Below, one piece after another: positions 2,803-43,922 of a stretch of 49,860 nucleotides of DNA; position 1 is the first letter of the stretch; each line of letters begins with the position of its first letter. The DNA comes from a virus. The notes beneath the pieces are model-generated. The model saw only the letters and a program-made list of their open reading frames with translations, searched no databases and was not told where the DNA came from. The position numbers were made by a program, and so were the translations under genes. The DNA lies in the IMG/VR virus record IMGVR_UViG_3300023184_000187, positions 1-49,860 of that record; one strand, written 5' to 3'.

Positions 2803-3019
2803 CTTTTAATCTCATTGGTTTATAATACGACACAAAATTCTCTATAACATACCAGAAAAACTTCTCCTTTACAGCATCAATATCTTCTCCGCTCATTATG
2901 TACTGCCTAAATACATTATCTGAAAACTCTATCTCAAGTAACTTGTCTGTCTCTGTAAACTTAAATGAGTTAGCGCTATCAAACTCCATTATTCTTATTA
3001 ATCTATCTAAATTTTTCAT
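2792..3019 (-). CDS. Hypothetical protein, 75 aa, paralogue-like to next downstream gene
   Basis: A short protein that begins MKNLDRLIRIMEF and shares an F-x-x-Y-I ... D-A-[VL]-[KR]-E-K-x-F pattern with its downstream neighbour. Its ATG overlaps the stop of the exonuclease gene by four bases, suggesting coupled expression with the recombinase pair. No family is recognised. Confidence 0.63.
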   Translation of the reverse strand: MKNLDRLIRIMEFDSANSFKFTETDKLLEIEFSDNVFRQYIMSGEDIDAVKEKFFWYVIENFVSYYKPMRLKDEF

Positions 3020-3747
3020 AATACGTCCTGTATAAAATAATTATTAATATCCTCAGTCGCGTCCTTACTGAAGAACTTCTTGTACACCTCAATGGCTCTC
3101 ATCACCTTATCCCTACCACCTAAGATAAATTCTTCTGAAGGCTCGTATACTCCAAGCCTGTGACTCTTCTTACACACCACGTAAAACACTAGAGGCTTAC
3201 CGAACAACTGGCTGTAGATATAAGCCTGCGAGTCGTAGTTATACTTTTTAGCGGACCAACGAAAGTCGTCGATGTCTGACGTGGTCTTGATGTCGATCAA
3301 AATGTCCTCGCTAACTATATCAGCCTTACCCTTGAACGGCATACCGAATATTTCACCAACTGATGGCTGTTCGAACACGTTGCCATCGCGGTAGATGTTC
3401 TCGTAGAAGAAGAAGTTACCCTTCATCGTGCTTACAAGCGAGTCAAGTTCGTCCTGCTCATTTTTCAATAGCAAAATCGCTGATGATGATTTTGACACGG
3501 CATCCTTGTATATGTTCGTGTTCCTAGTCGAGGCTTCAACTACTTCAAAGTTAACAAGTTTCTCAGGCTCAAGCATAGCCGTGTGCAGGTACGAGCCTTG
3601 AAGCATAGGAACCGTTGGCTCCTCTCTAACCTTGAACATACGCGGGTTCTTTAATAAAGTGTTAATATCGCTGTTGCTGATGTACTTCGAGCCAAACTCA
3701 CCGTAGTAGTTGGCATCGTCTCTTAGTTTTTCTATTACTTTGCTCAT
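3016..3747 (-). CDS. RecE/PD-(D/E)XK-family exonuclease (DUF3799-like)
   Basis: The predicted product is a PD-(D/E)XK nuclease that would resect double-stranded DNA ends for recombination. The nuclease core is visible: D143 in KADIV, D152-I-K154 in LIDIKTT, and a RecB-type QxxxY at Q174-Y178 (DSQAYIY). The upstream GSYLHTAMLEPEK (residues 51-63) matches the GxxxHxxxLEPE motif of phage RecE-like and Cas4-like nucleases. At 243 aa it is a stand-alone domain. It sits one base downstream of a Sak3-type annealing protein, the classic exonuclease plus annealase arrangement, so double-strand-break repair or replication-linked recombination is likely. Confidence 0.85.
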   Translation of the reverse strand: MSKVIEKLRDDANYYGEFGSKYISNSDINTLLKNPRMFKVREEPTVPMLQGSYLHTAMLEPEKLVNFEVVEASTRNTNIYKDAVSKSSSAILLLKNEQDELDSLVSTMKGNFFFYENIYRDGNVFEQPSVGEIFGMPFKGKADIVSEDILIDIKTTSDIDDFRWSAKKYNYDSQAYIYSQLFGKPLVFYVVCKKSHRLGVYEPSEEFILGGRDKVMRAIEVYKKFFSKDATEDINNYFIQDVL

Positions 3748-8583: not shown

Positions 8584-9162
8584 TTAGAAATTGTTTTGTA
8601 CTGAATTCCATATTATAGCCTGATACTCGAAGCCCTTCATACCTAACTTCTTAGCCTTGCTTAGTGTTATGCTTTGTAATTGCTTATAAGCCAAGTCACC
8701 TATCGAGCCCATTGTTCTATCGAAACAAGCCCTAAGGTGCCAAACGTCAACCGTTACAAAGTTTTCGTTTAAGTGAGCGATATTCTCACAAAATGCAAAC
8801 GTCTTATTACTTTCGCTTGTTATTGTTACCTTGCCTTGAGCTATGGCAAAGGCTTTGAACTTGTTTGTGTGGAAAGTACTGACTTTAGTATCCGCTGCGC
8901 TGATACTATTTTGTACGGCTTCAAAAACTGAATACGCATCCTGAATATTCTTAGCCCACTTGTTTCTAGGACTAAGCGCGCTGATTACTCCTGAGGCTAC
9001 AAACGTACTCGTGCCGTATTTTTGCGCAATATCTTTGCAAATGTCATTTGCCTGTTGGTACCAAACTAAGCCCGATTTTATATCGCTTTCGTTTGCCAAG
9101 TTAAAATACTTGTCAAGGTTTCTAGATATCTTTTGCAATTGGTATTTAGTTAACTTTTTCAT
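8584..9162 (-). CDS. HhH-glycosylase-like phage protein (DUF7178-like), 192 aa
   Basis: The order of motifs resembles a phage family related in pattern to helix-hairpin-helix DNA glycosylases: GLVWYQQANDICKDIAQKYG (residues 31-50), ALSPRNKWAKNIQDAY (62-77), FHTNKFKAFAIAQG, FAFCENI, and VTVDVWHLRACF (about 136-147). In glycosylases the Asp of a VDxHV motif activates water; D139 in VDVWH stands in the same place. The family usually has no proven activity, so base excision or modification-linked repair is inference. It sits among small early genes. Confidence 0.6.
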   Translation of the reverse strand: MKKLTKYQLQKISRNLDKYFNLANESDIKSGLVWYQQANDICKDIAQKYGTSTFVASGVISALSPRNKWAKNIQDAYSVFEAVQNSISAADTKVSTFHTNKFKAFAIAQGKVTITSESNKTFAFCENIAHLNENFVTVDVWHLRACFDRTMGSIGDLAYKQLQSITLSKAKKLGMKGFEYQAIIWNSVQNNF

Positions 9163-10937: not shown

Positions 10938-10986
10938 CACAGATAATGTTTGGTAGAGAACTCATTATCATTAAAGATATTTTTAA

Positions 10987-11024
10987 ACCCTGCGGTGCGG
11001 AACTCTACTTCCAATCTGCGGGGT
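10987..11024 (+). promoter_or_regulatory. Stem-loop in the leader of the HNH gene, possible attenuator
   Basis: ACCCTGC (10987-10993) pairs with GCGGGGT (11018-11024), with an inner GGAA/TTCC pair (10999-11002, 11009-11012), followed by ATTTTATTT. It looks like an imperfect terminator placed between the promoter at 10930 and the ATG at 11043, so it may attenuate transcription or be part of the endonuclease's insertion footprint. Confidence 0.45.
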
Positions 11025-11042
11025 ATTTTATTTGGTATAGAA

Positions 11043-11651
11043 ATGAAAATTTGTAAAAAGTGTAAATTAGAAAAAGATTTAACTGAGTTTAGAAAAGATA
11101 TTAAAGGAAGGAAAGGTGTTAAGTGTACGTGTAAAATTTGTGATAAGGTTGCAAGAGATTTAAAAAAACCAATAAAAGAAAATAAACCAAAAAAAAGTCA
11201 AGAAGAAATTATTGAAGCGAGAAGAAATTATTATCAAGCTAACAAAGAAAAATTAAATAAATATTCAAGAGAATATAGATTAAAAAATAAAGATAAAATA
11301 AAAGTAATAAGAAATAAATATCAAAAGAAAAGATTGTCAGAAGACTTTGTGTATTCTTTTAAGTTTAAAATTAACAGTTCTATAAGAAAGTCTTTTAAAA
11401 AAAGAAACTGTATAAAGTCAAAAAGAACTGAAGAAATACTTGGATGTACTATTACTGAATTTATAGAATATATATCTTCAAAATTCACAGAAGGAATGAC
11501 TTTAGAAAATTATGGTGAATGGCATTTTGATCATATAATTCCTATATCATCTGCAAAAACAGAAGAGGATGTAATAAGATTAAATCATTATACAAACCTT
11601 CAACCTCTTTGGGCAGAAGATAATTTAAGAAAAGGCACTAAAATTTTTTAA
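11043..11651 (+). CDS. HNH homing endonuclease, 202 aa
   Basis: A free-standing HNH endonuclease. The start is set at the ATG at 11043 (MKICKKCKLEKDLTEF); a TTG-initiated extension to 10950 would only translate the structured leader. A zinc-binding N-terminus (C4, C7, C28, C30, C33 region) is followed by a Lys-rich helical linker and the HNH core HFDHIIPISS (H161, D163, H164) with TNLQPLW and N194. It would cut a specific site in related phages and spread by repair. The gene is much more A-rich than the adjacent groEL, which suggests separate acquisition, and it lies between two promoters. Confidence 0.85.
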   Translation: MKICKKCKLEKDLTEFRKDIKGRKGVKCTCKICDKVARDLKKPIKENKPKKSQEEIIEARRNYYQANKEKLNKYSREYRLKNKDKIKVIRNKYQKKRLSEDFVYSFKFKINSSIRKSFKKRNCIKSKRTEEILGCTITEFIEYISSKFTEGMTLENYGEWHFDHIIPISSAKTEEDVIRLNHYTNLQPLWAEDNLRKGTKIF

Positions 11652-11662
11652 TTAATTTACAC

Positions 11663-11670
11663 TATATTTG
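11663..11670 (+). promoter_or_regulatory. TATATTTG -7 box upstream of the chaperonin unit
   Basis: TATATTTG-CA matches TANNTTTG and lies 26 bases before the 41-codon ORF and 155 bases before groEL. It gives the chaperonin genes their own start downstream of the HNH gene. Confidence 0.68.
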
Positions 11671-11696: not shown

Positions 11697-11822
11697 ATGG
11701 AAATTACAATCACACCAAACTATCTTCTGTTTGGTTTATCCTGGTTCTCACCAGACGAGGAGTACGACTACTCCGAGATCAATATCTACATCTTATGTTT
11801 ACACATCAAATTTATATTTTAA
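11697..11822 (+). CDS. Small hypothetical protein, 41 aa
   Basis: The frame runs from the ATG at 11697 to TAA at 11820-11822, three bases before the groEL ATG. The product (MEITITPNYLLFGLSWFSPD, acidic EEYDYSE, then INIYILCLHIKFIF) is hydrophobic at both ends. I have a sense that similar tiny proteins occur in Bacteroidota phages, without a known role. Close spacing to groEL supports translation. Confidence 0.5.
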   Translation: MEITITPNYLLFGLSWFSPDEEYDYSEINIYILCLHIKFIF

Positions 11823-11825
11823 TTT

Positions 11826-13409
11826 ATGAACGACTTAGTATTTGACGAAAAAGGAAGAGACAAACTGATTAATGGTATAACTACAATCAGTAAGGCAGTA
11901 AAGAGCACGTTAGGACCAAGAGGTAAGACGGTGCTAATTGAATCACAGAACCACACGAATGGAATAACAATTACCAAGGATGGTGTTACGGTTGCTAAAT
12001 CAATCAACCTTAAAGATCCAGTTGAGAACCTAGCGGTGCGTATGATGAAAGAAGCAGCTGACAGAACAGCAACGAGTGCTGGTGATGGAACAACCACAGC
12101 GATTGTGCTTACGGAGGCTATGGTCACAAGAGGCAATGAGTTCATCACGGAGAAGAACAACCCGACAGAGGTGCTGCGTAATGTGAACACTGTTGTGGAT
12201 GGTGTGGTGAAGAGTCTGGAGAAGGTGAGTAAGAAGGTGAGCGGTAAGACGCTGAAGGATGTTGCGTCTATATCTGCTAACAATGATAAGGAGCTGGGAG
12301 CGATTATCGCTGACGCGTATAACAAGATCGGTAAGGAAGGGATCGTTACGGTGGAGAACTCACAAACGGACAAGACCTACAGCGAGGTGACTAACGGGAT
12401 AAAGATAGACCGTGGCTACACGAGCAGGCTGTTCGTGAATGATATGAAGAAGGAGGAGTGTATAATGGACGACGTGTACATTATGGTGACTGACCAGGAG
12501 ATAAGTAACATACTGTCGATTGAGAACGTGCTGAAGCCGATCATAAACGGACAGAAGAAATTATTGATTATAGGACCGTGTACTGGCAACGTGATCAACA
12601 CGCTGGCTGCAAACGTGGCGCATAACAACCTTAAGTTCTGTAACATTCAGCCACCACAGTTTGGATACAAGCAGCAGGAGCTGATGCAGGACATTGCGCT
12701 TGCAGTTGGGGCTAAGTACTTCAGCGAGCAGACGGGTGATGACTTGAGTCTAATCACGATAGACCACCTTGGCAAAGCAGACAGAGTGATCGTTGGAAGG
12801 GACAGCACGGTGCTGGTTAGAAGCGAGACATCAAACGAGGCGATTAGAGAGCGTGTTGAGCAGCTATGGATACAGCACAACAACTCAACTAGGAAGAATG
12901 AAAGAGACGCCTTAAAAGAACGTATAGCATCACTTACAGGTGGTGTTGGAGTAATATATGTTGGAGGCGGATCGGACGTGGAGCAGAAGGAGCGCTACGA
13001 TAGGGTTGATGATGCTGTCTGTGCGGTTAGGTCAGCACTAGAGGAGGGTATACTTCCAGGTGGTGGTGTGGCGCTGTATAACATAGCGTCTGATATCATA
13101 GCATACGCTGATGAGAGTATGGAGCACATAAGCCACGACCAGTACACCGCGATGCAGATAGTTGGTTGGGCGATACAGTCACCGCTGCTTCAGATAATGG
13201 ACAACGCTGGCAAGGACGGTTACGAGATGATGTCAGATGTAAACACGCCAGGTCACGGATACGATGTGAAGAACGAGTGCTATGGTGATATGTTTGGGAT
13301 GGGGATCATAGATCCGCTGAAGGTGACGAAGAACGCGCTGAAGAACGCGGTCAGTGTAGCCACTACGATACTAAGCACGAACGCAATTATAACCTTAACA
13401 CGAGCGTAA
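11826..13409 (+). CDS. groEL: Phage chaperonin GroEL
   Basis: A full-length group I chaperonin of 527 aa that uses ATP to fold proteins in a double ring with GroES. Key ATPase residues are all present: KD52GVTV, GD87GTTT and D396 in RVDDAV (matching E. coli D398), plus PGGGVALY at 411-418. The apical domain is the most changed part: YTSRLF at 198-203 where E. coli has YLSPYF, and IQPPQFGY at 274-281 where it has VKAPGFGD. The C-terminal Gly-Gly-Met tail is absent. Codons are richer in G/C (many GTG, CTG) than in neighbours, suggesting acquisition from elsewhere. The likely substrates are phage virion proteins, by analogy with other phage chaperonins. Confidence 0.97.
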   Translation: MNDLVFDEKGRDKLINGITTISKAVKSTLGPRGKTVLIESQNHTNGITITKDGVTVAKSINLKDPVENLAVRMMKEAADRTATSAGDGTTTAIVLTEAMVTRGNEFITEKNNPTEVLRNVNTVVDGVVKSLEKVSKKVSGKTLKDVASISANNDKELGAIIADAYNKIGKEGIVTVENSQTDKTYSEVTNGIKIDRGYTSRLFVNDMKKEECIMDDVYIMVTDQEISNILSIENVLKPIINGQKKLLIIGPCTGNVINTLAANVAHNNLKFCNIQPPQFGYKQQELMQDIALAVGAKYFSEQTGDDLSLITIDHLGKADRVIVGRDSTVLVRSETSNEAIRERVEQLWIQHNNSTRKNERDALKERIASLTGGVGVIYVGGGSDVEQKERYDRVDDAVCAVRSALEEGILPGGGVALYNIASDIIAYADESMEHISHDQYTAMQIVGWAIQSPLLQIMDNAGKDGYEMMSDVNTPGHGYDVKNECYGDMFGMGIIDPLKVTKNALKNAVSVATTILSTNAIITLTRA

Positions 13410-13410
13410 T

Positions 13411-13668
13411 ATGAAGCCACTTGGAAAATATGTGATAATCAACCAGATCGACGAGCAGGTTAAGTCTGACATCGGTCTGATAATGTCTGGTACGGATACA
13501 TCTAAGATGAGGTACAAGAAGGCAGAGATAGTAAAGAAGGGAACAGATGTGAACTCTATAAACGACGGAGACATCGTCTACTACGACAAAAACGCTGGCT
13601 ACAGTATGATGATAGGCGACAAGACCTACACCGTCATAATGGAGAGAGACGTTATCGTGGTGATATAA
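13411..13668 (+). CDS. groES: Phage co-chaperonin GroES
   Basis: A complete 85-aa GroES-type protein. MKPLGKYVII matches the first strand, and residues 18-35 form the mobile loop with IGLIMSG, equivalent to the GGIVL-type tip that binds GroEL. The remainder (AEIVKKGTDVNSINDGDIVYYDKNAG) matches the GroES barrel. It is shorter than E. coli GroES (97 aa) and the roof loop looks reduced. It starts one base after the groEL stop, so the pair is co-expressed. A stem-loop follows immediately. Confidence 0.93.
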   Translation: MKPLGKYVIINQIDEQVKSDIGLIMSGTDTSKMRYKKAEIVKKGTDVNSINDGDIVYYDKNAGYSMMIGDKTYTVIMERDVIVVI

Positions 13669-13934: not shown

Positions 13935-14411
13935 TTAATACTGCTTAGCTCTCTGTATTGCCTCATTCATCTCTAGGATCATCTTGCGATACCCGCGCGC
14001 GATATATCCAGCGTCCTTTCTAAAGATTGGGTTCTTAGTTGGGTGGGTTGTGATACCCTCCTCACCGCTAAGCTTCTTATAGACAGCGTTCATCAGCTTC
14101 TTGCCCTTGAACGACAGAGTGTATAGTGCCTTCTCGTTTCCGTTCTTCTCGCGCCAGGGCACGATCCAGTCTCCCTCGACCAGCCTCTTAAACCTGTTTG
14201 TATCCCAGCTCATAATCCTCTCAAACTTCTCGAAGTCGTGCTCAGAAAAGAGGTTCTCGGAGTATAAAAAGAGTAGCATCTCCAGATCTGGGTAGGATAG
14301 TCCATAAGCCTCTGACACCCAGTACCTTACAACACGCCAGTACTTAAGCCAGTCGTGTTTCGGTTCGACGCGTTGGTAGTTCTTAACTATTATTTTCTTT
14401 CTTAATTTCAT
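13935..14411 (-). CDS. Winged-helix-like DNA-binding protein, possible regulator, 158 aa
   Basis: The pattern YWRVVRYWVSEAYGLSYPDLEMLLFLYSENLFSEHDFEKFERIM suggests a helix-turn-helix core (about residues 24-70) and NEKALYTLSFKGKKLMNAVYKKL the wing and following helix, as in MarR-like proteins. It is the only leftward gene inside the rightward block and its start faces the palindromic promoter at 14426-14441, so it probably controls the neighbouring rightward genes or itself. The fold is inferred by pattern; no DNA target is shown. Confidence 0.6.
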   Translation of the reverse strand: MKLRKKIIVKNYQRVEPKHDWLKYWRVVRYWVSEAYGLSYPDLEMLLFLYSENLFSEHDFEKFERIMSWDTNRFKRLVEGDWIVPWREKNGNEKALYTLSFKGKKLMNAVYKKLSGEEGITTHPTKNPIFRKDAGYIARGYRKMILEMNEAIQRAKQY

Positions 14412-14632: not shown

Positions 14633-15130
14633 ATGAAACAAAAAAAAGGAATTGATATAAATTGTAAATGTTGTGATAAATTATTTTATGTTCCAAGTTA
14701 CAGATCTAAAACAGCTAAGTTTTGTTCTTTAGATTGTCAGAATCATAAACAATATAATAAATCAAAACATAAATGTAAGCAATGTAATAAAGAGTTTGAA
14801 GACAGTCCAAGTAGAATTGGAAAAAGAGTTTTTTGTTCTCAAGATTGTTATTCTGAAAATCAAAGGATATACAAGGATACAAAATTAAAAAGAAAAGCTC
14901 AAAAAATATTAATTGAAAATAAAAGAGGAATAAATTGGAGTGCAAATAATAGAAAATATGTTTTCGCTTTAAAACCAAAAAAATGTGAAAAATGTGGATA
15001 TGACGAATATGATTTTTGTTTAGATATACATCATATAGATATGAATCCAAATAATAACGATATAAATAATTTAGCTGTTTTGTGTGTTATTTGCCATAAA
15101 AAATTACATAAAGGAATAATAACTTATTAA
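14633..15130 (+). CDS. HNH homing endonuclease with zinc fingers, 165 aa
   Basis: Three Cys-rich parts precede the nuclease: CKCC...CSLDC (residues 11-35), CKQC...CSQDC (48-72) and C118-x-x-C121. The HNH core is LDIHHIDMNPNNNDINNLAVLC with H133-H134 and N146, followed by C151-x-x-C154-H155 and H159. This makes it a free-standing homing endonuclease with DNA-recognition zinc fingers. It splits two small basic-protein genes and is more A-rich than them, in keeping with insertion. Confidence 0.87.
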   Translation: MKQKKGIDINCKCCDKLFYVPSYRSKTAKFCSLDCQNHKQYNKSKHKCKQCNKEFEDSPSRIGKRVFCSQDCYSENQRIYKDTKLKRKAQKILIENKRGINWSANNRKYVFALKPKKCEKCGYDEYDFCLDIHHIDMNPNNNDINNLAVLCVICHKKLHKGIITY

Positions 15131-24337: not shown

Positions 24338-24565
24338 ATGGATATAATAAGAAAGATATCAGTTGGCGCTGACTATAAGAATGGCGCTATGCACTACATA
24401 GTAGGTCAGGATGTTCTTAATGGTAGCCATAGGATAAATCATATCGGAATAAATGAAAACACTGGAGATTTTGAGATCTGGATCGAGAAGGATGACGAGA
24501 TTAAGAAGTGGAAGAAGTTTAACGCTAATATGCCTATATCTACAGAGAATAATATTGACTTCTAA
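24338..24565 (+). CDS. Hypothetical protein of the packaging module, 75 aa
   Basis: A small protein (MDIIRKISVGADYKNGAMHY...GDFEIWIEKDDEIKKWKKFN) that shares one base with the next gene (TAATG). The leader AAATCAAATCAAATGGA is identical to that of the scaffold-like gene at 33172, suggesting matched translation rates. Similar small proteins precede terminase in related phages, but the function is unknown. Confidence 0.65.
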   Translation: MDIIRKISVGADYKNGAMHYIVGQDVLNGSHRINHIGINENTGDFEIWIEKDDEIKKWKKFNANMPISTENNIDF

Positions 24566-25131
24566 TGAAATCGCCATTTTACTTTGTCGTTAGACCTACA
24601 AACGGTAGGAGGTACGACAATATAAAGAAGATAGGCGATATCAACTTTATAACCAGTGTATCTCAGGAGGACCACACAGCAACTAATAGGTTTGCTGAGG
24701 TTGTGTCAGTTCCAAATAATTATGTTGGCGACATCTGTGTCGGTGACATACTTCTAGTTCACCATAACACGTTTAAGATTTACTACGATATGAAAGGTCA
24801 GGAGAGGAGCGGAACTAGCTTCTTGAAGGATGACCTTTTCTTTGTTGATGAGGACCAGTACTTTATGTACAACCACAATGGAGAGTGGAAGACACACTCC
24901 AAGTACTGCTTCATAAAGCCAGTGAAGACTCGTGAGTCATACATAAGCAAGGGTGGAGTATTTGAACCACTTATCGGAATTGTTAAATACTCTAATGACG
25001 AACTTAGAGATTTAGGCATTGTAGAAGGAGATGAAGTTTCATTCGAGCCAGATAGCGAGTATGAGTTTACCATTGATGATGAGAAGCTATATAGAATGTT
25101 CACTAAAAATATTACAATCAAATGGAACTAA
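24565..25131 (+). CDS. GroES-fold-like protein in packaging module, 188 aa
   Basis: The first 130 residues carry a pattern like a chaperonin-10 barrel: FYFVVRPTNGRRYDN, then a possible loop (SVSQEDHTATNR), AEVVSVPNNYVGDICVGDILLVHHNTF and FFVDEDQYFMY. The C-terminal part (residues 135-188, GIVKYSNDELRDLGIVEGDEVSF) reads like a second small beta barrel. It differs strongly from the clear GroES at 13411. It may be a structural or assembly factor. The fold call is by eye only. Confidence 0.5.
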   Translation: MKSPFYFVVRPTNGRRYDNIKKIGDINFITSVSQEDHTATNRFAEVVSVPNNYVGDICVGDILLVHHNTFKIYYDMKGQERSGTSFLKDDLFFVDEDQYFMYNHNGEWKTHSKYCFIKPVKTRESYISKGGVFEPLIGIVKYSNDELRDLGIVEGDEVSFEPDSEYEFTIDDEKLYRMFTKNITIKWN

Positions 25132-27609: not shown

Positions 27610-28272
27610 ATGCCATACGTTTATAGACATATAAGGTTAGACAATGATACTGTTTTTTATATTGGAATAGGAAGTGATAACAGATATAATAGGGCTAACG
27701 AAATAAAAAGCAGAAGTTCTCACTGGAAAAATATAGTTAAAAAAACTGATTACGAAGTTGAAATACTTTTCGAACACGATGATTATGACTTTATAAAAGA
27801 AAAAGAAGTTGAGTTTATAAGTTTATACGGAAGAGCTGATTTAGGATTAGGAACTCTGTGTAACAAAACAAATGGTGGAGATGGATGTTTAGGTTTAGTT
27901 CATACTGACGAAGCAAAACTTAAGATGAGCATTCCTAATAAAGGAAAGATAATATCTGAAGAACAAAAGAAAAAAGTTTCAGAATTTCATAAAGGAAAAG
28001 TTTTGACTGAAGAGCATAAATTAAAAATCAGCTTAGCTCATAAAGGTAAAAAACAAAAGCCGCATACAGAGGAACATAAGCAAAAGATAAGAGATAAAAT
28101 GCTCAGAGGTCAAGATAATCCATCTACAAATTTAAAAAATGAAGATGTATTATTATTAAGAGATTTATACTCTACTGAAAAATATAACATTGCTCAATTA
28201 GCTAAAATGTTTAATATATCTAGAGGTTCTGTTTATAACATAACAAAAAGAATAACCTGGAACCATATATAA
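27610..28272 (+). CDS. GIY-YIG homing endonuclease with NUMOD3 repeats, 220 aa
   Basis: The nuclease domain has YVYRH (residues 3-7) and FYIGIG (16-21) as the GIY/YIG pair, Arg at 25/28 and a likely catalytic Glu near 66-68 (KEKEVEF). Next come repeated NUMOD3-type DNA-binding units, each with an EEHKxKIS...HKGK pattern (residues ~100-170), and a C-terminal HTH (AQLAKMFNISRGSVYNITKR). It sits between terminase and portal, directly after the terminase TAA, so it is free-standing rather than in an intron. Confidence 0.88.
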   Translation: MPYVYRHIRLDNDTVFYIGIGSDNRYNRANEIKSRSSHWKNIVKKTDYEVEILFEHDDYDFIKEKEVEFISLYGRADLGLGTLCNKTNGGDGCLGLVHTDEAKLKMSIPNKGKIISEEQKKKVSEFHKGKVLTEEHKLKISLAHKGKKQKPHTEEHKQKIRDKMLRGQDNPSTNLKNEDVLLLRDLYSTEKYNIAQLAKMFNISRGSVYNITKRITWNHI

Positions 28273-28277
28273 AATAA

Positions 28278-30713
28278 ATGAAAGAAGTAACTATAAAAAT
28301 AGATCCTATTGGATTTCCAGGACAATTTGTTTCAGATAAAGAAAAATCTTCTTATGAGTATGGTCTTCAAATTATGCAGGCAATTTCTTATGAGTGGTTC
28401 AAAAGAGATAGTGGAACTTGTAAGTTTTATAATCAGTGGGGTGAGTTTCATCGTCTTAGGTTATACGCAAGGGGAGAACAATCAGTTGCTAAGTATAAGA
28501 ATGAGTTGTCAGTAGATGGTGACCTTTCTCATTTAAATTTAGATTGGACACCAATTCCAATCATACCAAAGTTTGTCGATATCGTTGTTAACGGTATGTC
28601 TGACAGACTTTTTAGAGTTAAGGCTTATGCTCAGGATGCAGTATCTGCCGAAAGACGTAGTAAGTATCAAGATATGATTGAGACCGATATGGTGTCTAAG
28701 GATATTCTGAATCAGATAAAGGATAGTTTTGGTGTTGATGCGTTTGATACAAATGCTGACCAGCTTCCTCAGGATTCAGAGGAGCTTAACTTATTTATGC
28801 AGATAAACTACAAGCCAGCGATAGAGATTGCTGAGGAGACTGCAATTAACACTATACTAGAAGATAACAAGTACTCAGACACAAGAAGCAGAGTTGATTA
28901 CGATTTAGCTGTACTTGGTAAGGGAATAGTTAAGCACCAGTTCCTACCAGGAAGTGGCGTTCAGATTGACTATGTAGATCCTGCTAATATAGTTCACAGC
29001 TACACAGAGGATCCACACTTTAGAGATTGCTTCTACTGGGGTGAAATTAAGACTGTATCTATTACTGAACTACTTAAAATTGATCCTACTCTTACTAATG
29101 AGCAGCTTGAAGAGATTTCAAAGTATAGCCAGTCTTGGTATAATTACTACAACAACGCACAGTTCTATCAGAACAGTTTGTTTAGTAGAGACTCTGCTAC
29201 ATTACTTTATGTAAACTATAAGACAACTAAGAAGTTTGTCTACAAGAAAAAAATACTAGATACAGGCGGTGTTAGAATAATTCAAAAGGATGATACGTTT
29301 AACCCTCCTAACGAGATGATGGAGGATGGTAAGTTCGAGAAAATAGAAAAGACTATTGACGTATGGTATGATGGAATTATGGTGATGGGAACTAACATTA
29401 TGTTGAAGTGGGAGCTTTCCAAGAATATGGTAAGACCTAAATCATCATCTCAGCACGCTCTTCCAAATTATATTGCAGTAGCTCCAAGAATGTATAAAGG
29501 TAACATAGAGTCTTTGGTTAGACGTATGATACCATTTGCTGACTTGATTCAGGTTACTCACTTAAAGCTACAGCAGGTTATATCTAAGGTTGTGCCTGAT
29601 GGTGTATTCATTGATGCTGATGGACTTAACGAGGTTGATTTGGGTAACGGAGCGGCATACAATCCAGAGGACGCATTACGATTATACTTCCAGACTGGTA
29701 GTGTAATTGGTAGAAGTTACACTCAGGATGGTGAGTTTAATAATGCAAGGGTTCCTATTCAGGAACTTAACTCTAATAGTGGTCAGGGTAAGATAGCTTC
29801 GTTAATTGGAAGTTATAATCACTACCTAAGTATGATTAGAGACGTGACGGGATTGAATGAGGCTAGGGATGGTAGTATGCCAGATCCTAACTCTTTGGTT
29901 GGTCTACAGAAGCTTGCAGCAGCAAACTCAAATACAGCCACACGACACATACTAGACGGAAGTTTAAGCATAACTAAGGAATTAGCTGAGGCTATATCTT
30001 ACAGAGTTGCTGATATATTAGAGTACTCTGACTTTGCAGAGACATTCGCGATGCAGATTGGTAAGTATAATGTAAGTCTTCTTGATGAGATTAAGGAGAT
30101 ATACATATACGACTTCGGTATATTTATAGAGATGTCTCCAGACGAGGAGGAAAAAACTAAGCTAGAGCAGAATATTCAGGTTGCACTTTCAAGAGATGCA
30201 ATCACGTTAGAAGATGCTATAGATATTAGAGAGATAAATAATATTAAGCTTGCTAATCAGTTGCTTAAACTTAAGAGACGTAAGAAGCAGGAGCAGGATC
30301 AGCAGAATGCTATGCAGACTCAGCAGATGCAGGCTCAGATTAATGCTCAGTCTCAGCAGATGGCTGCTCAGAATGCTATGCAACAAATTCAAGCAGAGAC
30401 ACAGTCTAAGATGATGATCAAGCAGGCAGAGATTGGATACGAGATAGAGAAGATGAAATCTGAGGCTCAGCTAAAGGTTGAGTTGATGAATGTTGAGTTC
30501 CAGATGAATATGCAGCTTAAAGGCGTTGAGGCTCAGTCTATAACTATGAAGGACGAGATGAAGGAGAAGGCTAAGGATAATAGAATATTAAAACAGGCAA
30601 CAACACAATCTAAGTTAATTGAGCAACGTAAGAATAACTTACCACCTGTTGACTTCGAAAGTAATGATGACAGTTTGGACGGATTTGACTTGGCTGAATT
30701 TGAGCCGAGATAA
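28278..30713 (+). CDS. Portal protein, 811 aa
   Basis: The predicted ring protein at the head vertex through which DNA passes. Size and order after the terminase fit. Motifs include LHLNLDWTPIPIIPKFVDIV-like text (IIPKFVDIVVNGMSDRLF, about residue 95-112), WYDGIMVMGTNIMLKW, and a helical stem around residues 430-560. The C-terminal ~120 residues are Gln/Met-rich and helical (EQDQQNAMQTQQMQAQI), possibly barrel or scaffold contact, and end acidic. Its start lies five bases after the GIY-YIG gene. Confidence 0.87.
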   Translation: MKEVTIKIDPIGFPGQFVSDKEKSSYEYGLQIMQAISYEWFKRDSGTCKFYNQWGEFHRLRLYARGEQSVAKYKNELSVDGDLSHLNLDWTPIPIIPKFVDIVVNGMSDRLFRVKAYAQDAVSAERRSKYQDMIETDMVSKDILNQIKDSFGVDAFDTNADQLPQDSEELNLFMQINYKPAIEIAEETAINTILEDNKYSDTRSRVDYDLAVLGKGIVKHQFLPGSGVQIDYVDPANIVHSYTEDPHFRDCFYWGEIKTVSITELLKIDPTLTNEQLEEISKYSQSWYNYYNNAQFYQNSLFSRDSATLLYVNYKTTKKFVYKKKILDTGGVRIIQKDDTFNPPNEMMEDGKFEKIEKTIDVWYDGIMVMGTNIMLKWELSKNMVRPKSSSQHALPNYIAVAPRMYKGNIESLVRRMIPFADLIQVTHLKLQQVISKVVPDGVFIDADGLNEVDLGNGAAYNPEDALRLYFQTGSVIGRSYTQDGEFNNARVPIQELNSNSGQGKIASLIGSYNHYLSMIRDVTGLNEARDGSMPDPNSLVGLQKLAAANSNTATRHILDGSLSITKELAEAISYRVADILEYSDFAETFAMQIGKYNVSLLDEIKEIYIYDFGIFIEMSPDEEEKTKLEQNIQVALSRDAITLEDAIDIREINNIKLANQLLKLKRRKKQEQDQQNAMQTQQMQAQINAQSQQMAAQNAMQQIQAETQSKMMIKQAEIGYEIEKMKSEAQLKVELMNVEFQMNMQLKGVEAQSITMKDEMKEKAKDNRILKQATTQSKLIEQRKNNLPPVDFESNDDSLDGFDLAEFEPR

Positions 30714-32518: not shown

Positions 32519-33133
32519 ATGAGAATCAAAGATATAGTAAATGAATTAATTAAAAATAAATACACTAAAGATGAATTAAACTTATCTTGTGGTGTTTATA
32601 TTTTAACATTAAATAACAAACATTATATAGGAAGTTGTAAGATGTTAAATTATAAAATGTCAAGAAACGGGTTTTATTATAGACTTTATTCACATATATA
32701 TAATTTAATGAGAGGTAAACATCATTCATTAAAATTACAAAATGCAGTTAATAAATACGGAATAAATAATATTGATTTTGACATTATTCAAGAATGTGAT
32801 TCTAAAATAACTACTGATATAGAACAATATTGGTTAAACATAATGAATACTTTTAAAAAAGGGTATAATAGTTGTCCTAATTCAAGAAGTATTTTTGGGT
32901 TTAAACATACAGAAAAATCTAAATTAAAAATGTCAAAATCTAAAATAGGAAAAACTCCTTGGAATAAAGGTTTAAAAGGAGAATCTCCTTCTTTAGAAAC
33001 AAGAAAAAAATTAAGTGATGCTCTTTTAGGTAGAAAAAAAGGACCTATGTCTGAAAAACAAAAAATAGATATTAGTAATACATTAAAAAATAGATATTTA
33101 GAAAAGTCTAATCGTTTAATAGACTTATCGTAA
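32519..33133 (+). CDS. GIY-YIG homing endonuclease with NUMOD3, 204 aa
   Basis: Motifs are G25-V-Y27 and Y36-I-G38 as the GIY/YIG pair, R55 in YYRLYSH, and E102 in DIEQYWL as the catalytic Glu. NUMOD3-type units GFKHTEKSKLKMSKSKIGK and KKLSDALLGRKKG follow. The gene is very A-rich compared with neighbours and inserts between the Dps-like and scaffold-like genes. It is free-standing. Confidence 0.88.
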   Translation: MRIKDIVNELIKNKYTKDELNLSCGVYILTLNNKHYIGSCKMLNYKMSRNGFYYRLYSHIYNLMRGKHHSLKLQNAVNKYGINNIDFDIIQECDSKITTDIEQYWLNIMNTFKKGYNSCPNSRSIFGFKHTEKSKLKMSKSKIGKTPWNKGLKGESPSLETRKKLSDALLGRKKGPMSEKQKIDISNTLKNRYLEKSNRLIDLS

Positions 33134-34290: not shown

Positions 34291-35712
34291 ATGTCAGTAT
34301 TATCTACACCAGGCTTTGATTTGCAGCCTTCAGCAGAGAGAAAAACTCTAGCATCAAATTACATCACAAACTTTGACTTCTTGAATCAGTATCTTCCAGA
34401 TACTTACGAGAAAGAGTTTGAAAGATATGGTAACCGTTCAGTTGCTTCTTTCTTAAGAGCAGTTGGAGCTGAGATGCCATCTATTTCTGACCTTATCAAA
34501 TGGGCAGAGCAAGGTCGTTTACACACAAAATATGTTAACTGTGTTGCTACAGGTTTCCCTGCAGGTTCATTAACAGCTACAATTATTGTTAACGATACTT
34601 TAGTACCAGGTAATGGTGGAATCGCATTTAGAAAAGGACAGACAGTTATATTGTCTTCTAACACTACTGCTGCTAACTCTAACAAAGGTATTATTATCGA
34701 TGTTGACTACGCTAACGGAACTTTTGACGTAGCTTACTACGAGGCTGCAGGTCAAACTTTTGCAGCTACTGATGTAATCACTACATTTGTTTATGGTTCA
34801 GAGTTTAGAAAAGGAACTGAAGGGTTGGAAGAGTCTTTAGAGGCTGATGACTTGATCTTAGAGAATAGCCCAATTATCATCAAAGATAAGTATGCAGTAT
34901 CTGGTTCAGATATGGCTCAAATCGGATGGGTTGAGGTTACTACTGAGAATGGTGCTACAGGTTACTTATGGTACATCAAATCAGAGCACGAAACTCGTTT
35001 GAGATTTGAAGATTACTTAGAGTTAGCTATGATTGAGTCTGTACCAGCTGAAGCTAATTCAGGAGCTGCTACTCAAACTACTTTTACAAACGCTGGTAAC
35101 AAAGGATCTGAAGGTTTATTCTACTCTGTTTCTCAAAGAGGAAACGTATGGGGTGGTGGTAACCCAACTACATTGTCTGACTTCGATACTATTATCCAAC
35201 GTCTTGACAAGCAAGGTGCTATCCAAGAGAATGTGTTATTCGTTAACCGTCAGTTCTCTTTCGATATCGATGATATGTTAGCTGCTCAAAACTCTTACGG
35301 AGCTGGTGGTACATCTTACGGTTTATTCGATAACGATAAAGAGATGGCATTAAACTTAGGATTTACAGGATTCAGAAGAGGTTACGACTTCTACAAAACT
35401 GACTGGAAATACTTAAACGATGCTGCTACTCGTGGTGGTTTAGTTGGTGGTGCTATAAATGGAGTGTTAGTTCCTGCTGGATCTACAACTGTTTATGACC
35501 AAGTATTAGGTAAAAACGCTAAGAGACCATTCTTACACGTACGTTACAGAGCTTCTGAAACAGAAGATCGTCGTTACAAAACTTGGATTACTGGTTCTGC
35601 TGGTGGTGCTGCTACATCTTCTTTAGATGCTATGGAAGTACACTTCTTATCAGAGAGAGCTTTATGTACTTTAGGTGCTAACAACTTCTTCTTATTCGAA
35701 GCTAATAACTAG
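34291..35712 (+). CDS. Major capsid protein, 473 aa
   Basis: The predicted HK97-type shell subunit. It follows the scaffold-like gene and shows strong preference for GCT, TCT, GGT codons, unlike neighbours, as expected for the most heavily translated gene. Motifs: NFDFLNQYLPDTYEKEFERYG (about residues 28-48), FLRAVGAEMPSISDLIKWAEQG and DYLELAMIESVP (about 240-251), with a Gly-rich C-terminal half that would be the A-domain. It is followed by a strong terminator. Confidence 0.88.
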   Translation: MSVLSTPGFDLQPSAERKTLASNYITNFDFLNQYLPDTYEKEFERYGNRSVASFLRAVGAEMPSISDLIKWAEQGRLHTKYVNCVATGFPAGSLTATIIVNDTLVPGNGGIAFRKGQTVILSSNTTAANSNKGIIIDVDYANGTFDVAYYEAAGQTFAATDVITTFVYGSEFRKGTEGLEESLEADDLILENSPIIIKDKYAVSGSDMAQIGWVEVTTENGATGYLWYIKSEHETRLRFEDYLELAMIESVPAEANSGAATQTTFTNAGNKGSEGLFYSVSQRGNVWGGGNPTTLSDFDTIIQRLDKQGAIQENVLFVNRQFSFDIDDMLAAQNSYGAGGTSYGLFDNDKEMALNLGFTGFRRGYDFYKTDWKYLNDAATRGGLVGGAINGVLVPAGSTTVYDQVLGKNAKRPFLHVRYRASETEDRRYKTWITGSAGGAATSSLDAMEVHFLSERALCTLGANNFFLFEANN

Positions 35713-41600: not shown

Positions 41601-43922
41601 GATCCTGATGGATTTGGGGTTGTAACAATCAACTCATTTGACTGCTTTTCATTTGGTAATGGAGTTGAATCTTATAAAATAAATGATTCAATTGTTGGCG
41701 ATCCTTTTTACTTAGGTTCTAGAGTTACTGCTGTAGCTCAGGAACAATATAAGGAGGCTCATAGGTATGCATCTATAACATATAGTGGAATATATAATGC
41801 AGAGACAAACATAAACAAGTTAAATGAGTTCAACTTATCACTTGCAAACTTTAAGGATTTAGAGAAGTCTTTTGGACCTATCAACAAGTTATATGCAAGA
41901 CGTACAGATGTTCTAGTTCTACAAGAGGACAAGATATCATATACATTAGCTGGTAAGAATTTACTATCTGACTCCGCTGGAGGTGGACAAATTGCGTCTA
42001 TACCAGAGGTGTTAGGTACTCAGATTGCAAGAACTGAGGACTATGGTATTAGTAATAATCCTGAGAGTTTTGCTGTACTAGGTGGAGAGGTTTACTTTAC
42101 TGATATAAAAAGAAACGTGGTGCTTAATCTTAGAGGCGGATCAGCACAGAGCGATGCTCTTAGTATTGTCTCTGATATGGGTATGAAGTACTGGTTCAGA
42201 GACGAGTTCAAGAACTCACAGAACTATTTTAAGATAGGTGGATACGATCCTTATATGGACGAGTACGTACTTCACCTTACTGAAAATTCTATGCCAACAG
42301 AAACAGATGTTTTTGGTTGTGGAATTACAGTGTCTAAACAAAATGTTAATGGATTTTATGAGTTTAATGTAGAGGTTGGTGATCAAATAGGAGAGGTAAC
42401 TATTGATCTATCTTTATTTAGTGGAGAGATGCATATTATAGCAAATTATAATGATGTCGATGTGGTTGATGAAATCCTAACTATTCAGGACAACTACTCG
42501 TTTACATTTGAAAAGTTGTTAGTGTTTCCTAACACGGTTAATATAAAAATAACATCTATTAATGCATCGTTTTCAATAAATACAAACTGCATAAATGTTA
42601 TAGATTATATAAATGTTTATAGAGTTGTTTACAATAACCCAGGGTTAGAGGATCAGACAATACATAACCAGTACAGATGGAGTTTAGGTACTTATAATAG
42701 TCCATTTTTAAATGACTTTATAATTATGGAGGCTGATGGCGTATCGCTATACGATAGTCAGTTCGGTGGATTATCTGATGGTATGATACCAGCTGACGGA
42801 AGTGATATAACACTTGTTTCACAAAAGAGAACTGGAGATACGTTTGTATTTAATCCAGAACTAAACTCATTCAAATATCTAGTATCTAATAACTTATATA
42901 CTCCAAGTGAGTTACTTCCTTTATTGACTCCTATAACTCCTATAACTGGAGAGTATCGTGTTACTATAAATAACGCGGCATTAGCAGGTTATGATTATTT
43001 ATATTTGGTTTGGGATTACAGAAGTATGTCTTCAATAACACTATGTTATGACGAGACTAATCCTTATGTTTTATGTTGTGATTGTACTGTATCAGACTCT
43101 TACTTTATAAACTCAGATTCTTTTATAACTGCTACAAGTATTTGGACTGATGAAAATCAGACAACTGTTGCTGCTGATGGGTTCTATATGATTGATGGAA
43201 CATATAGACAGTTGTTATCTGGTGTTCTTTTAGATCCTGTCCCTTGCAATGGATGTGTTACACAGACCTTATGTTTTGTAGGATTATGGGAAGAGGGAGA
43301 TCCCGAACATCCTGATGGAGGTACTATTACATATGTAAATCCAGCTGGAGAAACAATTATACAGGATCTAATATGGCAAGGTAATTTTGTATCTATAGAA
43401 TTTATAGATATAATTTCTTATGTTGGAATTTATGAAATTAACTGTAATCCACAGACTCAGTGTTTTGAAGGCTTATGGGAATCAGCAGAGCATCCTGAAG
43501 GAGGAAGCGTTACTTATATAAATGTAGATGGATTTACCATAACACAAGACTTAATATTTTTAGGAGATACTGTAACTATACAATACTTAGAAATAATATC
43601 TTTTATTGGAGTTGTAGAGGTTGTGTGTAATATGATATTATCATCAAGAAGTCATACTGGATTACCATATTCTGAAAGAGATAATGGTTGTGAAGAAATA
43701 TTAGATGATAACATATATATTATATCAAATGCAGGTACAGATATTATAGAAAGTGGTGACATAGTATGCAACTCTATAAATTCAAACGATAGATTTAATG
43801 GAGGTGATTTATATTATCTATTAAATAAACAAGCATCTATGCCTGGGTACGAATACGTATGTCAAATAAATAATGATGGAGTTATTACTGTTTACTATCT
43901 TTGCCCAGCACCACCACCATAA
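38625..43922 (+). CDS. Tail stabilisation / muzzle-like protein, 1765 aa
   Basis: The start MDLNTTFLKGRMNKSLDERV and PDGEYIDALNIRIGSTENNS is the hallmark of large P22 gp10-like stabilisation proteins, called muzzle protein in crAss-like virions. The middle resembles beta-propeller blades (YWFVTDPG, LLFWTDNYNPPRRINV). PEVLGTQIARTEDYGISNNPESFAVLGG near residue 1127-1154 is a conserved segment of the family. The C-terminus adds two Cys-flanked repeats of about 60 residues (about 1546-1607 and 1611-1668) and ends CPAPPP. It would form the outer tail end. Confidence 0.82.
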   Translation: MDLNTTFLKGRMNKSLDERVLPDGEYIDALNIRIGSTENNSVGAIENSLGNTKITSILYEGNPLSTNARCIGAYEDNQHETIYWFVTDPGNVDMVLSYNDKTGTLIYHVISTTVLNFNTQYLVNGIDLIDGLLFWTDNYNPPRRINVNSSYAYPTMGVDNITEDDISVIVAPPLESPSIVPLISSTEKNYIIDKFVSFSYRYKYKDGEYSALSQFSDIAFVPDNFFVDFTSYTNGAMQNVFNSYNVFFNTGSKNVIQVDLCFKLSDSSIVNIIERYNKNEQGWGDDQIKSINFNNKKIYTALSSSELTRLFDNVPRIAKSQTTMGNRLMYGNYVDGYDIDTNINYDVVGVSEAVGGKSLDVFTDDGFYTINPSTPATIPSGIIKIDFTDTEIKTGALLSIQFRLFHYSFSGDPSYALEGILNEFDFSFNFNITNDFSSAYQLSQDQAFINAIYTHNPIADCGTGFSLTDKFNCSIITVATSPPDWDIVGTGISAVDQGFTIISSPTEPNIIKLQIPAIKFVGVQAETPDLIAYEYLTDIGTVASLSTLENKRSLHSNRDYEVAIVYQDEYLRSSTALVCNDNTVFFPASASDTKNYIVSTIQNLAPSWAKRYKFVVKPSKSKYETIYTNLFFQDDDGFVWFKLEAENISKAKIGEQLTVKRDSNGAMNNLVTVTVLDVKSQSDNFISGPNSDDIVYEPAGVYMKMRVTNFEVIYDKNSFIQLKTVGPDGYDYPQRRIDLSYANPSYDPSIPIDAENQPRITYDIPAGSIVKFDIRMNRDEANFLDANCGSRNYKYIRTVVANQDYDNLYLLAQGEGINFEDGVVSGNDDTMNTKDYNQVLGVFAPCYSFSGVSDYICGDNPHLPFNPNRFYKYFIPPYWTAPPYNTPGVNRFMFQRVDPENPYDQSLVGGYYLILGSGTPMCIGSFGLDRKGSYIGGDITIQKATSLIVFETEALDADGEIYYEGSDSFPIDENRFHMSGDAPADKDQTSSTDPDGFGVVTINSFDCFSFGNGVESYKINDSIVGDPFYLGSRVTAVAQEQYKEAHRYASITYSGIYNAETNINKLNEFNLSLANFKDLEKSFGPINKLYARRTDVLVLQEDKISYTLAGKNLLSDSAGGGQIASIPEVLGTQIARTEDYGISNNPESFAVLGGEVYFTDIKRNVVLNLRGGSAQSDALSIVSDMGMKYWFRDEFKNSQNYFKIGGYDPYMDEYVLHLTENSMPTETDVFGCGITVSKQNVNGFYEFNVEVGDQIGEVTIDLSLFSGEMHIIANYNDVDVVDEILTIQDNYSFTFEKLLVFPNTVNIKITSINASFSINTNCINVIDYINVYRVVYNNPGLEDQTIHNQYRWSLGTYNSPFLNDFIIMEADGVSLYDSQFGGLSDGMIPADGSDITLVSQKRTGDTFVFNPELNSFKYLVSNNLYTPSELLPLLTPITPITGEYRVTINNAALAGYDYLYLVWDYRSMSSITLCYDETNPYVLCCDCTVSDSYFINSDSFITATSIWTDENQTTVAADGFYMIDGTYRQLLSGVLLDPVPCNGCVTQTLCFVGLWEEGDPEHPDGGTITYVNPAGETIIQDLIWQGNFVSIEFIDIISYVGIYEINCNPQTQCFEGLWESAEHPEGGSVTYINVDGFTITQDLIFLGDTVTIQYLEIISFIGVVEVVCNMILSSRSHTGLPYSERDNGCEEILDDNIYIISNAGTDIIESGDIVCNSINSNDRFNGGDLYYLLNKQASMPGYEYVCQINNDGVITVYYLCPAPPP

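Follow-up and report, generated by a model that had tools for sequence, protein, structure and literature searches.

A clade-fixed apical groove and altered ring contacts in a phage GroEL encoded with its own GroES and a predicted Cpn20-like second co-chaperonin

The DNA analysed here, referred to as the window, is the 49,860-base IMG/VR record IMGVR_UViG_3300023184_000187. Its ends are linear, and it is probably a fragment rather than a whole genome. Six features of the window are central to this report:

11663..11670, plus strand: promoter-like element TATATTTG, whose position upstream of groEL is kept in most relatives
11697..11822, plus strand: optional 41-aa reading frame starting MEITITPNYLLFGLSWF, located between TATATTTG and groEL and ending 3 nt before groEL
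11826..13409, plus strand: groEL, a 527-aa group I chaperonin (Pfam Cpn60, 222 bits; phrog_5725, 464 bits)
13411..13668, plus strand: groES, an 85-aa co-chaperonin without the roof hairpin (Pfam Cpn10, 39.4 bits; phrog_3188; alignment)
24565..25131, plus strand: predicted second co-chaperonin, 188 aa, Cpn20-like, with two predicted Cpn10-type halves (phrog_13932; AF2 model; PDB fold match)
34291..35712, plus strand: head structural protein, 51.7 kDa (phrog_13704; relatives)

The terminase, portal and structural genes of the window were assigned to PHROG head-and-packaging families by profile matches. Among named genomes, the closest are MW202828.1, a circular 60.9-kb genome of Podoviridae sp. 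ctfjg026 from Manatee Spring, and those of the Elemovirus phages that infect Flavobacterium sp. BAL314, at about 60 kb. Identity of the head protein amounts to 70% with MW202828, 49% with elemo and 40% with Cellulophaga phage Calle. On the basis of these genomes and identities, the host is most likely a flavobacterium, and the lineage probably comprises aquatic phages of flavobacterial hosts. The window shares both the structural module and the chaperonin pair with the Elemovirus-like podoviruses, genus-level membership being a separate question. Low-GC (23–25%) endonuclease VII/HNH genes, likely mobile insertions, flank the chaperonin pair at 10950-11651 and 14633-15130. GIY-YIG/NUMOD3 homing endonuclease genes are located in the terminase-portal gap (27610-28272) and inside the structural module (32519-33133), and a DUF7178 protein (E 2.5e-30) is encoded on the minus strand at 8584-9162.

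The first-pass annotation of this DNA described a complete GroEL-GroES pair with its ATPase residues kept, and both statements hold. The two reading frames are intact and adjacent. The Cpn60 match spans 487 of 490 positions, and group I chaperonins rank first among the PDB matches (E 2e-121), indicating affinity to group I and not to the thermosome. The Cpn10 score of GroES compares with a curated cut-off of 21.1 bits. GroEL carries the sequence GDGTTT and the catalytic residues D52, D87 and D398 in E. coli numbering, the last being D396 of the phage protein, and 86% of the ATP-site positions are retained in the clade alignment. Against its relatives, groEL has a dN/dS of 0.03–0.07 and is thus under strong purifying selection.

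The element TATATTTG, which we take to be a Bacteroidota -7 type promoter element, precedes groEL by 34–166 nt in the window and in the 10 IMG/VR relatives compared. In MW202828, TATCTTTG is located 58 nt before groEL. Because the motif alone is common in the AT-rich window (86 matches vs 62 expected), only its conserved place upstream of groEL carries weight. The 41-aa frame is present in five close relatives (L001, L002, L006, L007 and L010) and absent in three (L005, L009 and L013).

The base composition and codon use of the pair had also been described as different from those of the surrounding genes. GroEL is indeed an outlier, with a GC content of 47.6%, where other window genes of at least 150 aa average 35.2% (z 2.2), a GC3 of 0.55 against 0.29 (z 1.95) and a CAI z of -2.4 relative to other window genes. 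It is not unique, however, as high GC3 is shared by the neighbouring regulator at 13935-14411 (0.63) and by the exonuclease at 3016-3747 (0.57). In MW202828, the GC content of groEL nearly equals that of its flanks (42.5% vs 39.2%). Recent acquisition, as judged from composition, was rejected: nearby genes have a similarly high GC3, and the contrast is inconsistent among relatives.

The apical groove was examined in an alignment of 19 GroELs of the window clade and 82 bacterial GroELs. Three segments of the window protein bear the changes:

12417..12434, plus strand: apical motif YTSRLF (phage residues 198-203; E. coli 199-204, YLSPYF), with P202R and Y203L (alignment)
12504..12536, plus strand: apical helix H, SNILSIENVLK, with L234E and E238K (E. 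coli numbers; ungapped alignment)
12588..12623, plus strand: apical helix I, NVINTLAANVAH, with L259I, A260N, V263A and V264A (alignment)

The replacement of YLSPYF by YTSRLF, reported in the first-pass annotation as part of a remodelled substrate-binding face, is real and extends through the clade: P202 is changed to R, N or K in 18 of the 19 GroELs and Y203 to L in all of them. The remodelling also goes further than had been listed, with L234E and V263A in 19/19, E238K in 18/19 and V264A in 17/19, together with A260N (19/19), K226E (18/19) and A278P (19/19). None of Y203L, L234E and V263A was found among the 82 bacterial sequences; E234, for example, is present in 19/19 clade members and 0/82 bacterial GroELs. 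N265 is kept. Measured against the canonical hydrophobic groove (Y199, Y203, F204, L234, L237, L259, V263 and V264), the window protein departs at Y203L, L234E, V263A, V264A and L259I. Family membership does not hinge on these positions, which differ in other phage GroELs as well, but the mismatch limits any claim that the phage protein binds like GroEL.

The groove has not diverged alone. Conserved groove positions are retained at 0.375 and other conserved apical positions at 0.44 (resampling fraction 0.36), so that the apical domain as a whole has diverged, and a special burst of change or selection on the groove is unsupported relative to those other positions. Conserved positions are retained at 43% in the apical domain and at 60% in the equatorial domain. 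The new groove states are themselves kept, with 95% conservation within the clade. In E. coli GroEL, L234, L237 and V264 touch the IVL tripeptide of GroES (PMC3514286). As the same residues bind GroES, altered co-chaperonin affinity explains the groove changes equally well, and a compensating E234-K238 pair could even keep that affinity normal. The proposal that the chaperonin is adapted to phage clients thus draws support from a changed, clade-fixed groove under purifying selection and is weakened by the divergence of the entire apical domain and by the double role of these residues; it is plausible but unproven.

Residues that join the two GroEL rings are altered as well. According to the alignment, the inter-ring salt bridge K105-D435 is possible in 100% of bacteria vs 16% of the clade, and R452-E461 in 99% vs 11%. 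The intra-subunit bridge D83-K327 is possible in 99% of bacteria and in 0% of the clade, and the R197-E386 bridge is still possible (as R-D) in 95% of the clade. Judged from these residues, ring-to-ring contacts are probably weakened in the phage protein. R452, E461, S463 and V464 are the residues mutated for single-ring E. coli GroEL, which is functional only when GroES binding is partly weakened; human Hsp60 is also without inter-ring bridges, yet its rings can pair (PMC5575113). The chaperonins of phages EL and OBP resemble the window protein in their altered apical domain and lost D83-K327 bridge, and their single-ring states may be counted as a further likeness if the window rings are as their residues suggest. 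They are, however, very distant proteins of jumbo phages; the EL chaperonin showed no interaction with E. coli GroES, and no GroES partner of its own has been identified (PMC7185714). The first-pass annotation missed the altered inter-ring residues, the absent GroES roof and the predicted second co-chaperonin.

The lid retains its contact loop, in agreement with the earlier description of a kept GroES mobile loop:

13477..13485, plus strand: GroES mobile-loop hydrophobic tripeptide LIM (E. coli IVL) (alignment)

The roof beta-hairpin, in contrast, is deleted in the window GroES and its relatives according to the alignment. Its absence is not decisive for GroES/Cpn10 membership, since T4 gp31, which serves head-protein folding, is also a phage GroES without roof loops (PMC6318259). 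Unlike the window phage, T4 has no GroEL of its own and uses that of the host. A structure prediction for the window GroES, made from 7 sequences only (pLDDT 58, weak Cpn10-type matches), was set aside as evidence. The Gly-Gly-Met tail of GroEL, noted earlier as missing, is absent in 19/19 clade members, and the window protein ends two residues (RA) past E. coli position 524.

We place a probability of roughly 0.55 on the reading that the pair is a dedicated phage chaperonin: a functional, anciently acquired and vertically kept group I machine with its own GroES, which would fold virion proteins with a weaker grip and with single or loosely paired rings. At the sequence level, this reading starts from intact genes, a kept ATP site, purifying selection and a fixed groove (L203, E234, A263, mostly A264 and K238). 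In addition, most inter-ring salt bridges and the GGM tail have been lost, GroES has no roof, and every near-complete relative carries the pair. With a less hydrophobic groove, substrate and GroES would both be held less firmly, and the rings may be single or loosely paired. These two properties fit together, given that single-ring E. coli GroEL works only with weakened GroES binding (PMC5575113): weakened binding would let the lid leave without a signal from the other ring. Altered ring contacts combined with a less hydrophobic lid-binding groove would then be the pairing expected of a natural single-ring machine. With no roof on the lid and no tails on GroEL, the chamber may be larger or more open, similar to the case of T4 gp31 and gp23 (PMC6318259), and such a chamber could suit a head protein of 51.7 kDa. 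By analogy with T4, the likeliest main client is this approximately 52-kDa protein encoded at 34291-35712.

Two other readings accept a working chaperonin. The pair could be an ordinary double-ring GroEL-GroES with unchanged clients and cycle, the groove and interface changes being neutral drift or compensated (E234 with K238). The kept ATP site and N265, the still hydrophobic GroES loop and the retained R197-E386 type bridge agree with it, and so does the fact that divergence in the groove does not exceed that at other conserved apical positions. This reading is a serious one, if on the whole unlikely, as the new states are fixed (95% within the clade) at known substrate- and GroES-binding residues and both inter-ring bridges are mostly lost. 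Alternatively, the main effect of the groove changes may be on the choice of clients, which would be narrowed or shifted to phage proteins, leaving ring structure and lid affinity as they were. The changed and fixed substrate-binding residues would be expected in that case; the same residues bind GroES, however, and the inter-ring residues have changed too, which makes a pure client-range shift distinctly unlikely.

The long phage history that the dedicated-chaperonin reading supposes was assessed from phylogeny and gene distribution. In a scan of 84,980 genomes, the closest bacterial GroELs, among the matches listed, belonged to Flavobacteriales at 42% identity. Maximum-likelihood trees placed the window clade outside all bacteria on a long stem (support 100/100), and AU tests rejected trees in which it was joined to Flavobacteriaceae (p 0.012) or to all Bacteroidota (p 0.024). 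The exact placement of the clade, including its grouping with elemo (97/75), is unsure because of the long branches. Nesting of the pair within one host genus with normal apical residues, which the first-pass annotation had named as the mark of recent plain host capture, is rejected by the trees, the AU tests and the alignment. The GroEL of Bacteroides phage DAC20, which nests in Bacteroidales and has a normal groove, is what host capture looks like. Recent capture of a Bacteroidota host groESL operon that still works as the host machine is thus hardly credible: Flavobacteriales are the closest bacterial matches among those listed and groEL differs in composition from most window genes, but the best of those matches reaches only 42%, the phage order groEL-groES reverses the groES-groEL of E. 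coli, the clade falls outside bacteria, the pair is common to the whole phage lineage, and the groove is unlike all 82 bacterial sequences.

Phages with both subunits had been called uncommon, and this is correct overall, a GroEL match being found in 241 of 50,697 GenBank phage records. It does not apply to this lineage, where both subunits are present in 14 of 20 related fragments and in 7/7 of those of at least 58 kb; the 6 fragments without GroEL are shorter contigs of 29–54 kb. One apparent relative, 'Acinetobacter phage MD-2021a' (CAKLQF020000019.1), was discarded as contamination, since pckG, dgkA, acrB and a normal groESL nearby mark it as bacterial DNA. GroEL homologues have been reported in putative Flavobacteriaceae phages (PMC5332604), chaperonin cpn10 is among the core proteins of Pervagoviridae (PMC8776804), and a Maribacter phage carries both chaperonin subunits (PMC11590407). 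Phage GroEL-GroES pairs are already known from Elemovirus, Pervagoviridae and MW202828.

MW202828.1 is like the window in gene order, groove signature (YSSNLF, E234, A263, A264), missing GGM tail, roofless GroES and a co-chaperonin relative before the terminase. It differs in sequence (60% identity for GroEL, 49% for GroES), and its record is without functional description. The Elemovirus phages (Flavobacterium phages elemoA-F) are likewise podoviruses of about 60 kb with a groEL-groES pair, a roofless GroES, no GGM tail and a 180-aa relative of the second co-chaperonin. Their GroELs, however, are only 38–39% identical, with the apical motif YEFEGF, L or V at 234 and R452 kept, and their chaperonin pair is inverted relative to the structural genes, unlike in the window. 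Pervagoviridae (Cellulophaga phages Calle and phi38:1) share a GroEL, a single GroES and a long GroES before the terminase, but have the order cpn10-x-groEL, 38% GroEL identity and the apical motif YYHPSF or YYHPRF.

The predicted second co-chaperonin, encoded at 24565-25131, is covered from end to end by a match to phrog_13932 'co-chaperonin GroES' (E 5e-19). Its AlphaFold2 model, built from 26 relatives (pLDDT 74, pTM 0.71), has as best PDB fold match the Cpn20 chains 7ekq_R/Q, full length (Foldseek; TM 0.58, E 1.1e-3), followed by Cpn10/GroES chains. A PDB sequence search with its profile gave no match. When the halves were compared with the Cpn10 profile, the C-half reached 95–96% and the N-half only 8–19%. 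The window protein scores 13.3 bits with Pfam Cpn10, below the cut-off, which is passed by the homologues in phi38:1 and Calle_3 (24.1) and in phi46:3 (34.2). As no sequence similarity was detected between the two halves, the predicted tandem nature rests on the fold comparison. The modelled likeness to chloroplast Cpn20 is that of a two-domain co-chaperonin with a full-length fold match; in contrast to Cpn20, identity is about 13% and a second-half mobile loop and roof are not evident.

The protein is 55% identical to its counterpart in MW202828, 41% to that in elemo and 31% to that in Calle, and 286 relatives were found among pattern matches in viral contigs. Those in Elemovirus and Callevirus are annotated as 'co-chaperonin GroES' or 'chaperonin cpn10', and beyond such annotations no study of the double-length co-chaperonin was found in the literature covered. 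The long GroES gene directly precedes the terminase in phi38:1, and one short gene lies between them in the window and in MW202828. Cellulophaga phage phi46:3 (NC_021792.1, Pachyviridae) encodes one single GroES and one weaker match to the long GroES, at 28569-28790 and 41912-42397, and GroEL was not found in that genome, which indicates that co-chaperonins can be kept without the chaperonin. In plants and algae, lids of seven domains can be assembled from a mixture of Cpn20 and Cpn10 (PMC3542282). It is conceivable, if quite improbable, that the phage uses a three-part machine, in which one-domain GroES and Cpn20-like two-domain GroES would together form the lid of a single-ring, weak-groove GroEL, the two-domain protein being made with the packaging genes and so tying head-protein folding to assembly.

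New in this study are the combination of a clade-fixed groove and altered ring contacts, and the association with a predicted Cpn20-like co-chaperonin. The biochemically studied phage chaperonins in the literature covered (EL, OBP and AR9) come from jumbo phages, are very distant and have no described cognate GroES. The window clade provides a compact chaperonin that can be aligned with GroEL, is accompanied by its own GroES and carries substitutions at known substrate- and co-chaperonin-binding positions of E. coli GroEL. With it, one can ask experimentally what degree of hydrophobic grip a chaperonin requires, and whether a naturally single-ring group I machine operates via a weakened lid. 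The double-length co-chaperonin is common to Elemovirus and Pervagoviridae and apparently occurs even in a GroEL-less phage; a three-part machine, if true, would parallel, in a bacterial virus, the Cpn60-Cpn10-Cpn20 system of chloroplasts.
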